Positions 28,476 through 33,035 of a stretch of 33,730 nucleotides of DNA are shown piece after piece. This stretch comes from a virus. Within the stretch, counting starts at the first letter, position 1; every line of letters begins with the position of its first letter. The position numbers were made by a program, and so were the translations under genes. Location: the IMG/VR virus record IMGVR_UViG_3300025383_000066, positions 1 through 33,730 of that record. One strand, given 5' to 3'. The notes below the pieces were generated by a model. It saw only the letters and a list, made by a program, of their open reading frames with translations, made no database searches and had not been told where the DNA came from.

Positions 28476-28718
28476 ATGAAATATGATTTATTTGGTGAAA
28501 TTATTACAGCTCAGGCTGAATGGCAAGATATGCCAGAATTTGTACAGGAAGACCTTACCCCTTATAGAGTCCTTAATGTCAGGTTCAGAAATGAGCAAGA
28601 TGTCCAAAAGTTTGCTGAGTTGATGGGTCAAAAGATTACCCCCAAACTCAAAACAATCTGGTTTCCCTATGCAGAACCTAGAGCTGTAGCTCATTTGAGG
28701 TATGTGGATGAATCCTAA
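28476..28718 (+). CDS. Conserved partner protein of the glycosyltransferase (80 aa)
   Basis: The layout WQDMPEFVQEDLTPYRVLNV, then QDVQKFAELMGQKIT and KTIWFPYAE, is a small domain that I recall next to TET-associated glycosyltransferase genes in several phages. It is alpha/beta with no clear catalytic residues. Its stop overlaps the glycosyltransferase start by 11 bases, so the two products are probably made together and may act as a complex; that is inference. Confidence 0.65.
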   Translation: MKYDLFGEIITAQAEWQDMPEFVQEDLTPYRVLNVRFRNEQDVQKFAELMGQKITPKLKTIWFPYAEPRAVAHLRYVDES

Positions 28719-29565
28719 ATATCCAATTTACATTGTTTCTAAAGGCAGAGCTGATTCCAGATTGACTAGCAAAGCATTAGAGAAAATGAATTGTCTTTAT
28801 TACATTGTGGTTGAGGAACAAGAATTTGACATTTATGCCAAGGTCATAGACCCAGCCAAAATCCTTATCTTGCCACAAAAGTATTTGGATGAGTATGACA
28901 TTTTTGATAATCTTGGCAGTACCAAGAGCAAAGGACCAGGAGCTGCAAGAAACTTTGCCTGGGAACATTCCATTAGTCTTGGTGCTCACAGGCACTGGGT
29001 CATGGATGACAATATTGAAAACTTTTGCAGGCTAAACAGAAACAGAATGGTGAGATGCCACTGCCCAACAATTTTTAGATGTGCTGAGGATTTTGTTGAT
29101 AGATACACTAATGTTTATATTTCAGGATTTAACTATGATTTTTTTGTCTTGGCTAAAGCATTACATCCACCTTTTGTCATGAACACCAGGATTTATTCCT
29201 GCTTGCTAATCCAGAATGACATACCCTACAGATGGAGAGGTAGATACAATGAAGATACAGATTTAAGCCTCAGAGTGCTCAAGGATGGATTCTGCACCAT
29301 CCAATTTAATGCTTTTCTCCAGCAAAAAGCTACAACTCAGACCCTAAAAGGAGGCAATACTGATGCTTTCTATGCCAAAGAGGGAACTTTACCCAAGAGC
29401 CAAATGCTTGTGGATATGCACCCAGATGTGGCTAAAGTGGTCTGGAAATTCAACAGACACCATCATGAAGTGAACTACAGAAAGTTCAAAGCAAACCAGT
29501 TAATTAGAAAAGAGGGATTAGTAGTAAAACCTGGCATTAATAACTATGGGATGAAATTAATATGA
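28708..29565 (+). CDS. TET-associated glycosyltransferase (TAGT family)
   Basis: Started at the ATG at 28708 (MNPKYPIYIVSKGR), seven bases after GAGG; the ATG at 28702 is too close to it. The 285 aa show the family start YPIYIVSKGRADSRLTSKAL, a GT-A-like core with HRHWVMDDNIENF (DxD-type metal site) and RYNEDTDLSLRVLKDG, and a C-terminal DMHPDVAKVVWKFNRHHHEV. By family knowledge these enzymes add sugars to modified DNA bases made by TET/JBP dioxygenases. No TET gene or cytosine methyltransferase is visible in the window. Probably protects phage DNA from restriction. Confidence 0.82.
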   Translation: MNPKYPIYIVSKGRADSRLTSKALEKMNCLYYIVVEEQEFDIYAKVIDPAKILILPQKYLDEYDIFDNLGSTKSKGPGAARNFAWEHSISLGAHRHWVMDDNIENFCRLNRNRMVRCHCPTIFRCAEDFVDRYTNVYISGFNYDFFVLAKALHPPFVMNTRIYSCLLIQNDIPYRWRGRYNEDTDLSLRVLKDGFCTIQFNAFLQQKATTQTLKGGNTDAFYAKEGTLPKSQMLVDMHPDVAKVVWKFNRHHHEVNYRKFKANQLIRKEGLVVKPGINNYGMKLI

Positions 29566-30731: not shown

Positions 30732-31071
30732 AAGGCAATATGTTAGAAGTACCAAACTTTTAAACAATATTAGATACTTACACTGCCATGCCTGTGGTGC
30801 TGATGACCAGACAATAGTGGGTGCTCACTCCAATAGCTTTGCACATGGAAAGGGCAGGGGAATAAAGGCTGATGACAATATGGTTGCTGCACTGTGCTGG
30901 GACTGCCACCATGCCTTAGACCAAGGACATTATCTAAATAAAGAGGAAAAGGAACAGTTTTGGATGGATGCCCATTTGAGGACTGTGTTTAGCCTGATAA
31001 AGGCTGACCTCTGGCCGTCCTCTGTTCCCCTGCCCCAAACCTACCTAGACTACCAAAACAAGCTAAATTAG
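30715..31071 (+). CDS. YbcO-like/HNH-type nuclease (118 aa, likely TTG start)
   Basis: The TTG at 30715 lies seven bases after AGGA and is preferred to the GTG at 30694; no ATG is available before the conserved part. The core HCHACGADDQTIVGAHSNSF and ALCWDCHHALDQG gives two CxxC pairs and His residues, a treble-clef (HNH/His-Me) nuclease like YbcO (DUF1364). It overlaps ninB by 17 bases. Its stop codon overlaps the stop of the convergent 55-aa gene. Confidence 0.72.
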   Translation: MKANPKRQYVRSTKLLNNIRYLHCHACGADDQTIVGAHSNSFAHGKGRGIKADDNMVAALCWDCHHALDQGHYLNKEEKEQFWMDAHLRTVFSLIKADLWPSSVPLPQTYLDYQNKLN

Positions 31072-31073
31072 CT
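31061..31073. terminator. Palindrome covering both convergent stop codons (weak bidirectional terminator candidate)
   Basis: AGCTAA-A-TTAGCT spans the overlapped stops of the plus (31069-31071) and minus (31068-31070) genes. T-rich runs follow on each side (CTTTTCT and TTGTTTTGG). The stem is short with almost no loop, so strength is doubtful. Rightward and lysis transcripts meet here. Confidence 0.35.
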
Positions 31074-31235
31074 CTTTTCTGGATGTGCCTTTTCCATAGG
31101 CAGATGCTCATGCTTTTTGAGCTTGTCTTCTAGCCTATGCAACTCATGCTCAGTCTTCTTTTCATGCTCTCTCAAAACCACATAATGTGATTTGGGAGAC
31201 TCATAAGTTTTGCCTGTAATTTTAAAGTTTTTCAT
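31068..31235 (-). CDS. Charged helical protein at the end of the lysis operon (55 aa)
   Basis: A short gene from the ATG at 31235, in an ATGA overlap with the endolysin stop. It begins MKNFKITGKTYESPKSHYVV and continues as a His/Lys/Glu-rich helix (LREHEKKTEHELHRLEDKLK). It may be a coiled coil. Overlap at both ends and clean composition support it. Unknown role in or after lysis. Confidence 0.6.
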   Translation of the reverse strand: MKNFKITGKTYESPKSHYVVLREHEKKTEHELHRLEDKLKKHEHLPMEKAHPEKS

Positions 31236-31651
31236 GCTATTTTCTTTCCTTCTTGAAGTTCAGCTAATGATAGTCCACCAGTGTATTGGAAATGTGCCAT
31301 CTCTTTAAAGTGAATCCATTTGCCTGCCCACTCTAGACCAGCTTGTTCACCTAATTCACCTATTGTTGCCCAAACTGGGTGACTTCCATCCCAATCAGCT
31401 TTTCCATTAACAAGAGGCACAACATCAACAGCACACCTATAGTTATGGAAAGACTCACCCCCTTTAGCATTTGTAACAATTCTTCCTTCTGTGGTTCTAC
31501 CTTGAGCATATAGTGCATCCTGGCTTTCATTATCCCTATATGTAGATGTAACCAACAAGTCAATGCCAGAATGTTGGCAAGCCTTAATAAAATCTTCAAC
31601 CTTTGCTTTAACTTCAGGTAGTAACTCATCTAAATTCCTTGAATTAATCAT
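31232..31651 (-). CDS. Endolysin, M15-type peptidase (L-Ala-D-Glu/D-Ala-D-Ala peptidase)
   Basis: A 139-aa protein. TSTYRDNESQDALYAQGRT is the M15 (VanY/Ply500-like) entry; zinc ligands are in SFHNYRCAVDVV (S-x-H-x4-A-x-D) and the C-terminal IHFKEMAHFQY (Glu and His). It cleaves peptidoglycan cross-link peptides. The ATG overlaps the holin stop. No signal peptide, so release through the holin is expected. Confidence 0.9.
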   Translation of the reverse strand: MINSRNLDELLPEVKAKVEDFIKACQHSGIDLLVTSTYRDNESQDALYAQGRTTEGRIVTNAKGGESFHNYRCAVDVVPLVNGKADWDGSHPVWATIGELGEQAGLEWAGKWIHFKEMAHFQYTGGLSLAELQEGKKIA

Positions 31652-32148
31652 TTTTCCTCCATAGGTGTTGATTTATGTAGCATTGCATCCTTGGCTTGTG
31701 AGCCTGCACTAGACCCAAAATAGAAACTCATGATAGCAGTCCAGGCTGTGCCAAGACTACCTAACATAAGTAGTAATGCATCTGATGTCTTGAATGTCTC
31801 CATCATCAATCCTACCAAGATACCAAAAAACCCTAATGTGACCATAATAGCCAAGGCTGGAGGAATAAATGAGTGAGTATTTGTTTGCATGTCCCTGGCT
31901 GACTTTCTGTCTTGGACTGCCAGTTGTTCGAAATCTAAACCCAATTCTTGTGCCTTTGCCTTAAGAGCTATCTCTGCTTGCTGGACACTTGCTATCTGGT
32001 CAGCAGTTAGTTTGCCATCATCAAGCATTTTTTTGGCATCATCTTGGGATATACCAAGAACTTTAGAGACTGCTTCATAGGCTAGACCCCCAAGAGGTCC
32101 TCCAATAGCTGTGGCAATAGTAGGTGCAATAGTTTTTAACCAATCCAT
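31648..32148 (-). CDS. Holin, GTA 3TM-type
   Basis: A 166-aa protein with strong ribosome site AGGAG five bases before the ATG. The N-terminal half is amphipathic with DFEQLAVQDRKSARDMQ before two spans (about 93-116 PPALAIMVTLGFFGILVGLM and 123-145 ALLLMLGSLGTAWTAIMSFY). This order matches the 3TM holin family of gene-transfer agents and phages. It forms the membrane lesion for the endolysin encoded next. Confidence 0.8.
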   Translation of the reverse strand: MDWLKTIAPTIATAIGGPLGGLAYEAVSKVLGISQDDAKKMLDDGKLTADQIASVQQAEIALKAKAQELGLDFEQLAVQDRKSARDMQTNTHSFIPPALAIMVTLGFFGILVGLMMETFKTSDALLLMLGSLGTAWTAIMSFYFGSSAGSQAKDAMLHKSTPMEEK

Positions 32149-32156
32149 ATTAACTC

Positions 32157-32421
32157 CTAGTTACAGTATCTTGGTGAATACCCTGTTTCCTGAAAAATTT
32201 TATAACACTCATATTCTTTGCTATCTGGCTTAAATTTCTTTTGAAACTCAATATGCCACTGCTCCTCTACTTTACTTCTTTGATAATCCCAGTGTATGTA
32301 ATACATCAAGCCTGCAACTGTGATGATGACCACCAAGATTGCAATACATATTGCAACTCTAAAATTCCATTTCTCTCTGTTTCTTTTTTTTCTGTAAGAC
32401 TCTTGCTCATCCTTTTTTTTT
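32157..32421 (-). CDS. -1-frame continuation of the lysis-cassette protein (membrane span)
   Basis: After the A9 run the -1 frame stays open for 85 codons to a stop at 32157, nine bases before the holin start. The peptide begins KDEQESYRKKRNREKWNF and contains one membrane span (VAICIAILVVIITVAGLMYY), then a soluble tail ending in SPRYCN. There is no usable start codon before the span in this frame, so it is made, if at all, by frameshift from the upstream frame. Relatives known to me appear to carry a C-terminal membrane span in one frame, which favours this as the true ending. The fusion would be 213 aa. Confidence 0.65.
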
Positions 32422-32797
32422 GAGCCTGTTCATATTTAGACTTGTCTTTCTCAAGTCTTGCTCTTTCCTCTTGGAAATCTGTCCACAAAGCACCTAGTTC
32501 TGGAGGAGCTTCATAAGTTAAGAGTTGCCTTAAATCATACTCAGCCTGCTGGAGTTGCTTTTTCTTGATGACATTCTCAAGAGCCTGGGCTTTTATGCTT
32601 TTGCCTTTTGGAGGATTCTTTTCTTTTTCTTTTAATTCTTTGTGGGCATTTTCTTGATGGTCAAAGAAATTGCCAACTCCCTCACTTAGCTCTGCATAAA
32701 TGCCATAAACTTCTTTTCCAACATTTTTAGCATCTTTGTAGATTGCCACCCCTTGCTTGATGGCACTCACAGCAGAGATGGCAAGCATGAAAGGCAT
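32306..32797 (-). CDS. Lysis-cassette coiled-coil protein, 0-frame product (163 aa)
   Basis: The first 128 residues are helical and charged: an N-terminal hydrophobic helix (MPFMLAISAVSAIKQGVAIY), NPPKGKSIKAQALENVIKKK and QAEYDLRQLLTYEAPPELGA, then Lys/Glu/Gln-rich helix up to the A9 run at 32413-32421. After the run the 0 frame adds 35 residues with no obvious structure (ending SWWSSSQLQA). It follows the XhlA-like gene by one base and precedes the holin. The family is unnamed to me. The frameshift is described separately. Confidence 0.7.
   Translation of the reverse strand: MPFMLAISAVSAIKQGVAIYKDAKNVGKEVYGIYAELSEGVGNFFDHQENAHKELKEKEKNPPKGKSIKAQALENVIKKKQLQQAEYDLRQLLTYEAPPELGALWTDFQEERARLEKDKSKYEQAQKKRMSKSLTEKKETERNGILELQYVLQSWWSSSQLQA
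32413..32421 (-). promoter_or_regulatory. A9 slippery run, candidate -1 frameshift site
   Basis: On the minus strand, C-AAAAAAAAA-GG. In 0 frame it reads CAA AAA AAA AGG, giving the classic heptamer A AAA AAA; a -1 slip continues as AAG GAT GAG. It is the point where the membrane-spanning continuation joins the upstream protein. A sequencing or assembly indel, or a real mutation, would look the same. Confidence 0.6.
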
Positions 32798-32798
32798 G

Positions 32799-33035
32799 TT
32801 ATTTCAAATTCACATAGTGAGAAATGAAACCAATAAAGCTAGATAGTCCTGAAACAACCATCATGCCTACCCAAAACCCACCCCTAGACTTATCAGCCAT
32901 AGAAACAAGTTTTTCAATAGATAACTCAAGTTTGTCTATTTTTCTTTCCATAGAATCAAACTTTTTTTCATAATCTTCTACTTTTTGCCAAAGTACTCCA
33001 TATTTGACAAGGTCAATTGGTGATTCTGTACTCAT
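32799..33035 (-). CDS. XhlA-like coiled-coil/membrane protein (78 aa), complete copy
   Basis: Residues 12-48 form a coiled coil (LWQKVEDYEKKFDSMERKID and LELSIEKLVSM), and residues 53-75 (GFWVGMMVVSGLSSFIGFIS) one membrane span. This is the layout of XhlA-type proteins, which pair with holins in lysis. It opens the lysis cassette, and its start overlaps the ejection-protein stop as ATGA. A second, partial copy sits at the other window end. Confidence 0.78.
   Translation of the reverse strand: MSTESPIDLVKYGVLWQKVEDYEKKFDSMERKIDKLELSIEKLVSMADKSRGGFWVGMMVVSGLSSFIGFISHYVNLK

Follow-up and report, generated by a model that had tools for sequence, protein, structure and literature searches.

Among the systems closest to the one described here are genes in which slippage on a homopolymer gives products of different length. 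The dnaX gene of Thermus thermophilus, which encodes a cellular DNA polymerase subunit, carries nine A in the coding sense strand; its templated frame specifies the long product and slippage truncates it (PMC5009743, PMC1088944). In Citrobacter rodentium, a poly-A run of eleven splits the gene of the envelope protein TssM, and slippage on this run leads to two TssM forms of different length in the absence of ribosomal stimulators (PMC4256274). Functional length variants also arise from homopolymer slippage in the plasmid-borne Shigella T3SS secretion genes spa13, mxiE, spa33 and mxiA (cited in PMC5009743 and PMC4256274). For the bacterial polymerase, efficient in vivo slippage is reported at nine A or T (PMC5009743), and runs of this length are selected against in many bacterial genomes (PMC1088944). 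For tailed phages, the mentions of transcriptional slippage that were found, for a tape measure gene, a methyltransferase gene and a topoisomerase, are suggestions only. In the open-access literature, subscription journals being mostly outside the search, no description of slippage control over a lysis-module gene in a dsDNA phage was found.

Two forms of one protein are also known from phage lambda. The tail assembly chaperones G and GT share their N part, and the longer one is a -1 extension obtained by a ribosomal shift. The holin and antiholin S105 and S107 are made from two start codons, and both forms reside in the membrane.

Here, we describe a phage gene in the window, that is, the whole stretch of 33,730 nucleotides of viral DNA that was analysed, in which a run of nine A (A9) separates a helical domain from a membrane span. 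The run is of the same length and in the same strand as that of T. thermophilus dnaX; however, slippage would be needed here for the long, anchored product, and the gene belongs to a phage rather than to a cell. No resemblance to the plasmid-borne Shigella genes was noticed. Unlike in tssM, where A11 occurs in a single bacterial gene, A9 recurs here throughout a family of phages, and without the shift no part of the membrane anchor would be made. As with lambda G and GT, a short and a long form would share their N part, but the gene lies in the lysis cassette of a P22-like genome; as with S105 and S107, one lysis-cassette protein would occur as two forms in a ratio. Slippage of the copying machinery at A9 probably provides the phage with one protein in two forms, free and anchored in the membrane.

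The split gene and its reading frames

The features of the locus are given in Table 1. As the preliminary description had reported, the 163-aa frame contains A9 and the -1 frame is open with a membrane span. Frame 0 reads on for 35 residues beyond the run to its stop at 32306-32308, while the -1 frame ends with the TAG at 32157-32159, leaving a gap of eight bases, rather than the nine first counted, to the ATG of the next gene (32148). When joined at A9, the two parts give a fusion of 213 aa in which the -1 part begins at residue 127 and the Kyte-Doolittle maximum falls on the predicted span. The 163-aa product contained no hydrophobic stretch above 1.5 on the same scale. Ordinary ORF calling gives the 163-aa ORF only at this locus, and the anchored form is missed.

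Table 1. Positions of the features discussed, in the window unless another locus is named.
Feature	Position	Strand	Basis or remark
Frame-0 ORF, 163 aa: helical N domain (residues 1-128) and 35-residue tail	32306..32797	(-)	
Proposed slippage site, A9; frame-0 register CAA AAA AAA AGG	32413..32421	(-)	
-1 frame part: basic linker, membrane span, tail with two conserved Cys	32157..32420	(-)	
Predicted membrane span, fusion residues 148-166, VAICIAILVVIITVAGLMY	32301..32357	(-)	Kyte-Doolittle 2.86; model of single-frame relative
TGA in -1 frame, eight bases before A9	32430..32432	(-)	Upstream-open lengths in relatives
TGA in third frame, just past the run	32407..32409	(-)	
78-aa coiled-coil and membrane-span protein, directly upstream	32799..33035	(-)	Weak XhlA-like match: phrog_1193 hemolysin, E 0.0027
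166-aa hydrophobic protein, holin position	31648..32148	(-)	phrog_1544, unknown function
M15-type peptidase endolysin	31232..31651	(-)	PF13539 E 4e-11; phrog_2649 endolysin E 5e-31
55-aa protein, motif SPKSHYVVLREHEKKTE	31068..31235	(-)	Many related lysis cassettes also end with it
Endolysin-exchange examples	L101 3571-5152; L084 3653-4673; L188 3651-4160		
Manatee Spring type loci	L221-L248, L286, L292-L299; MW202462 5949-6757		

The TGA in the -1 frame is the upstream limit for the place of the frame change. The early stop in the third frame is common among the relatives without being universal. The 35-residue tail had been described as structureless: its length stands, but the model gave a helix of modest confidence, which, having been made without related sequences, says little.

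Dinucleotide shuffles of the window gave an expectation of 4.7 A9 runs against the one observed. The occurrence of a single A9 is therefore unremarkable by chance, and its conservation alone counts as evidence. A second run, A8 at 32384-32391, lies 21 bases beyond A9 on the minus strand; it seems irrelevant as a site, since it is interrupted in many relatives and not conserved.

Conservation of the run among relatives

Relatives were collected by profile and single-protein scans of viral metagenome contigs, which gave 268 loci with both parts of the gene, 155 of them distinct at the DNA level. The C part lay in the -1 frame relative to the N part in 138 of the 155 distinct genes, and these split genes carried exactly A9 in all cases except one (137/138; A10 in L107). 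The same fusion was encoded in a single frame without a long run in 16 of the 155. The remaining gene, L072 (2995-3642), is a natural A10 variant with one uninterrupted frame. The first scan had given 56 loci, and in every one of them the C part was in the -1 frame, with identities of 39-100%. Runs of at least nine occurred at this site in 127 of 133 distinct loci, and elsewhere in 690 kb there were five. A conserved homopolymer of about nine or more A or T at the frame transition, as in programmed transcriptional slippage genes, was therefore present. The comparison of homologues that the preliminary description had called for thus found both the run and the -1 frame kept.

These counts bear on two explanations at the DNA level. 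The first is an artefact of sequencing or assembly, or else a mutation that has recently disabled the gene. Homopolymers are error-prone in general, and nothing further speaks for it; the same run was present in 137 distinct genes from many metagenomes, the C part was conserved in the -1 frame, and selection acts on both frames, as described below. This explanation is refuted by these three observations and has practically no probability. A base gained or lost in the run, which had been raised from the outset, is likewise rejected as a general explanation by the 138 split genes.

The second is a phase-variation or hypermutable switch, in which populations would mix A9 (off) and A10 (on) genomes. 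L072 fits such a switch, as it is A10 and uninterrupted while A9 and the shift are present in L151 and L152, its nearest relatives, with 99% identity in the best-matching segment. However, one uninterrupted A10 gene stands against 137 A9 genes, on-forms would be expected to be common if mutation were the main switch, and the C part is strongly selected in A9 genomes. We consider a DNA switch very unlikely indeed. That reversion to A10 would restore one frame yet was seen once in 155 genes suggests that a soluble fraction may be wanted.

Two further observations were made among the loci. In L028 (3001-3727), two segments that overlap and differ in frame both matched the N part, a picture resembling a partial tandem duplication or a chimeric assembly. 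The gene was also found on a single prokaryote genome contig (L115, from a MAG named Bacteroidetes).

Selection on the two frames

Selection was measured as pairwise pN/pS. In frame 0, the N part gave 0.30. The C part gave 0.41 in the -1 frame, which shows coding selection in the new frame; both parts are under selection. Over the stretch that overlaps the frame-0 tail, the -1 frame gave 0.68, while the tail itself, at 0.99, showed no coding selection and resembled the third frame (0.94). The length of the tail varied among genes, from 22 to 47 codons in most. Given these ratios and this variable length, the frame-0 tail is a by-product and the -1 frame is a real coding sequence. With 138 of 155 distinct genes split and both frames selected, the earlier proposal of a programmed shift that joins the helical domain to the membrane span is upheld.

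The place of the change could be narrowed further. In L123 and L124 the stop of the -1 frame abuts the run and the frame-0 stop follows within one codon after it, which means that the frame can change only within the run.

A further possibility is that the two parts are separate proteins, the -1 ORF being started internally and never joined to the N domain. An ATG or TTG does occur in the -1 frame soon after the run in some relatives; however, the position of such internal starts was not conserved among the loci listed, and the single-frame relatives make the joined protein. Two unjoined proteins are accordingly very unlikely.

Polymerase or ribosome

The family repeats the same site more than a hundred times in nature and includes two codon phases, one A10 variant and relatives with a single frame; such a set allows polymerase and ribosomal slippage to be told apart by comparison. 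The codon phase xAA AAA AAA AGN, with CAA or GAA first, was found in 120 genes, where the outer codons supply two A before and one after. The phase xTA AAA AAA AAG, with TTA or CTA first, was found in 17 genes, where they supply one and two. The A supplied by the outer codons sums to three in both phases, and to four in one case; a phase switch consists of one A lost on one side and one gained on the other, the length of nine being kept. The A8 combination, which would still contain the slippery A AAA AAA, was found in none of the 138 split genes. Lysine codons elsewhere in these genes are AAG in 42% of cases, and the run is never interrupted by AAG.

In -1 ribosomal frameshifting, tandem tRNA-Lys would slip on A AAA AAA or A AAA AAG, as in dnaX or lambda G/GT, and a uniform mRNA would give the same two products. 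A heptamer of the X XXY YYZ type, A7 or A6G in the right phase, is present in every site (A AAA AAA in CAA AAA AAA AGG, and A AAA AAG in the xTA phase), so that ribosomes could shift there, and stimulator-free -1 shifting is known for some tailed phages (PMC5009743). Seven A would suffice for such a shift, but nine or ten were present in 138 of 138 split genes and the length of nine was maintained through the phase switch. The stimulators that are usual, though not universal, for ribosomal shifting were also not consistently found: downstream RNA structure showed no consistent excess (mean z -0.08) and no conserved stem, and a Shine-Dalgarno-like sequence lay upstream in only 6 of 45 sites. 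We regard ribosomal frameshifting as unlikely, although it keeps some weight as the main rival; polymerase and ribosomal slippage may also both act at one site (PMC5009743).

The preliminary description had assigned the sequence to the established heptamer type of dnaX. This assignment was not sustained. A AAA AAG of dnaX has AAG as a frame-0 codon while A AAA AAA is followed here by AGG; conservation concerns nine A in a row, in either of two phases, without a consistent downstream structure or Shine-Dalgarno-like stimulator.

Because the homopolymer length of nine is conserved rather than a codon heptamer, and because consistent stimulators were not found, slippage by RNA polymerase is favoured over ribosomal frameshifting, and we hold with fair confidence that A9 is a programmed transcriptional slippage site. 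Against a polymerase, the length of nine might partly reflect a need at the protein level for three lysines at the joint.

The proposed mechanism would run as follows. RNA polymerase would slip on A9 while transcribing, so that part of the mRNA acquires one extra A. The templated A9 mRNA would give the 163-aa soluble helical protein. In A10 mRNA, the -1 frame would be in register and a 213-aa protein would be made, whose helix continues into the membrane span and whose short tail, with two conserved cysteines, would probably be periplasmic according to the inferred topology. A8 or A11 mRNA would meet a stop right after the run, in the window, and would give a further short soluble form. One gene would in this way yield free and anchored forms of one domain, in a ratio set by slippage. 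If true, phages can decide the membrane anchoring of a protein by slippage.

Protein family and lysis cassette

The fusion gave a weak profile match to PHROG 32327, of unknown function, which covers residues 6-171 and spans the joint (E 0.0011). It was the sole PHROG match; no Pfam match above the cut-off, no known holin or antiholin family in Pfam or PHROG and no PDB match with E below 0.001 were found, and the significant viral matches were uncharacterised phage proteins. The predicted model of the uninterrupted relative L072 was all helical (pLDDT 81), with a single helix, residues 100-179, that extends through the joint and the membrane span.

The placement of the gene in a lysis cassette was borne out, as the M15 endolysin lies downstream and matches to holins, Rz-like spanins and endolysins were found in related loci. 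Counterparts of 70-78 aa of the upstream 78-aa protein occur in most of the related cassettes listed, and the positional counterpart of the 166-aa protein in L033 matches a holin family. The 55-aa protein had no family match in Pfam or PHROG. The endolysin beside the split gene is swapped between families (M15 peptidase and others), and an Rz-like spanin may be present or absent, while the split gene itself is retained; examples are given in Table 1.

A role in lysis is suggested by this neighbourhood. From gene order and topology, we suggest that the split gene encodes a regulator or partner, in free and anchored forms, of the adjoining holin; this is the most likely role and the least certain step of the proposal. 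A fixed product ratio and a control of lysis timing, both raised in the preliminary description, are possible. The full reading, namely that slippage of the host RNA polymerase at A9 sets the soluble to anchored ratio of a lysis-module protein in an uncultured tailed phage lineage, is possible and is put forward tentatively. If it holds, transcription fidelity itself would set part of the lysis programme.

The P22-like character of the genome is given by portal, coat and terminase matches. A TET-associated glycosyltransferase is also encoded (28702-29565; PF20691, E 8.5e-46), which suggests modified bases in the phage DNA.

Origin of the split gene

Single-frame relatives with a C-terminal membrane span are widespread and include the L084 group, the L249 group (about 267 aa), the L342 group (216 aa) and the Manatee Spring type, with an anchored protein of about 221 aa. 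A search for cultured relatives returned no more than two records, both from the Manatee Spring metagenome, at about 25% identity. In the L249 group and the Manatee Spring type, the frame-0 C end was the region that aligned with the C part of the window (hhalign 93%). Given this alignment and the wide occurrence of single-frame anchored relatives, the anchored protein seems ancestral and the split seems to be a derived way of making soluble and anchored forms, as far as the sequences indicate.

The full-length tree needs one change for the A9 trait, and the N-domain tree with outgroups needs two, a gain followed by a loss in the L084 group. A single clade for the trait was not rejected by the AU test (p 0.23).

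In a locus of another group (L290, from 2001), the N part stops after 162 aa, and a 107-codon +1 frame with a membrane span follows. The locus has no long A run and represents either real recoding or an assembly error.

A second ORF was observed in the Manatee Spring type. It lies in the -1 frame and contains a membrane span. In 16 of the 16 loci examined, it either overlaps the single-frame gene at its 3' end or adjoins it there, and it ends 122-170 bases beyond the frame-0 stop. Descent of the C part of the window from this separate ORF is less likely, as hhalign gave 73% for it against 93% for the frame-0 C end.
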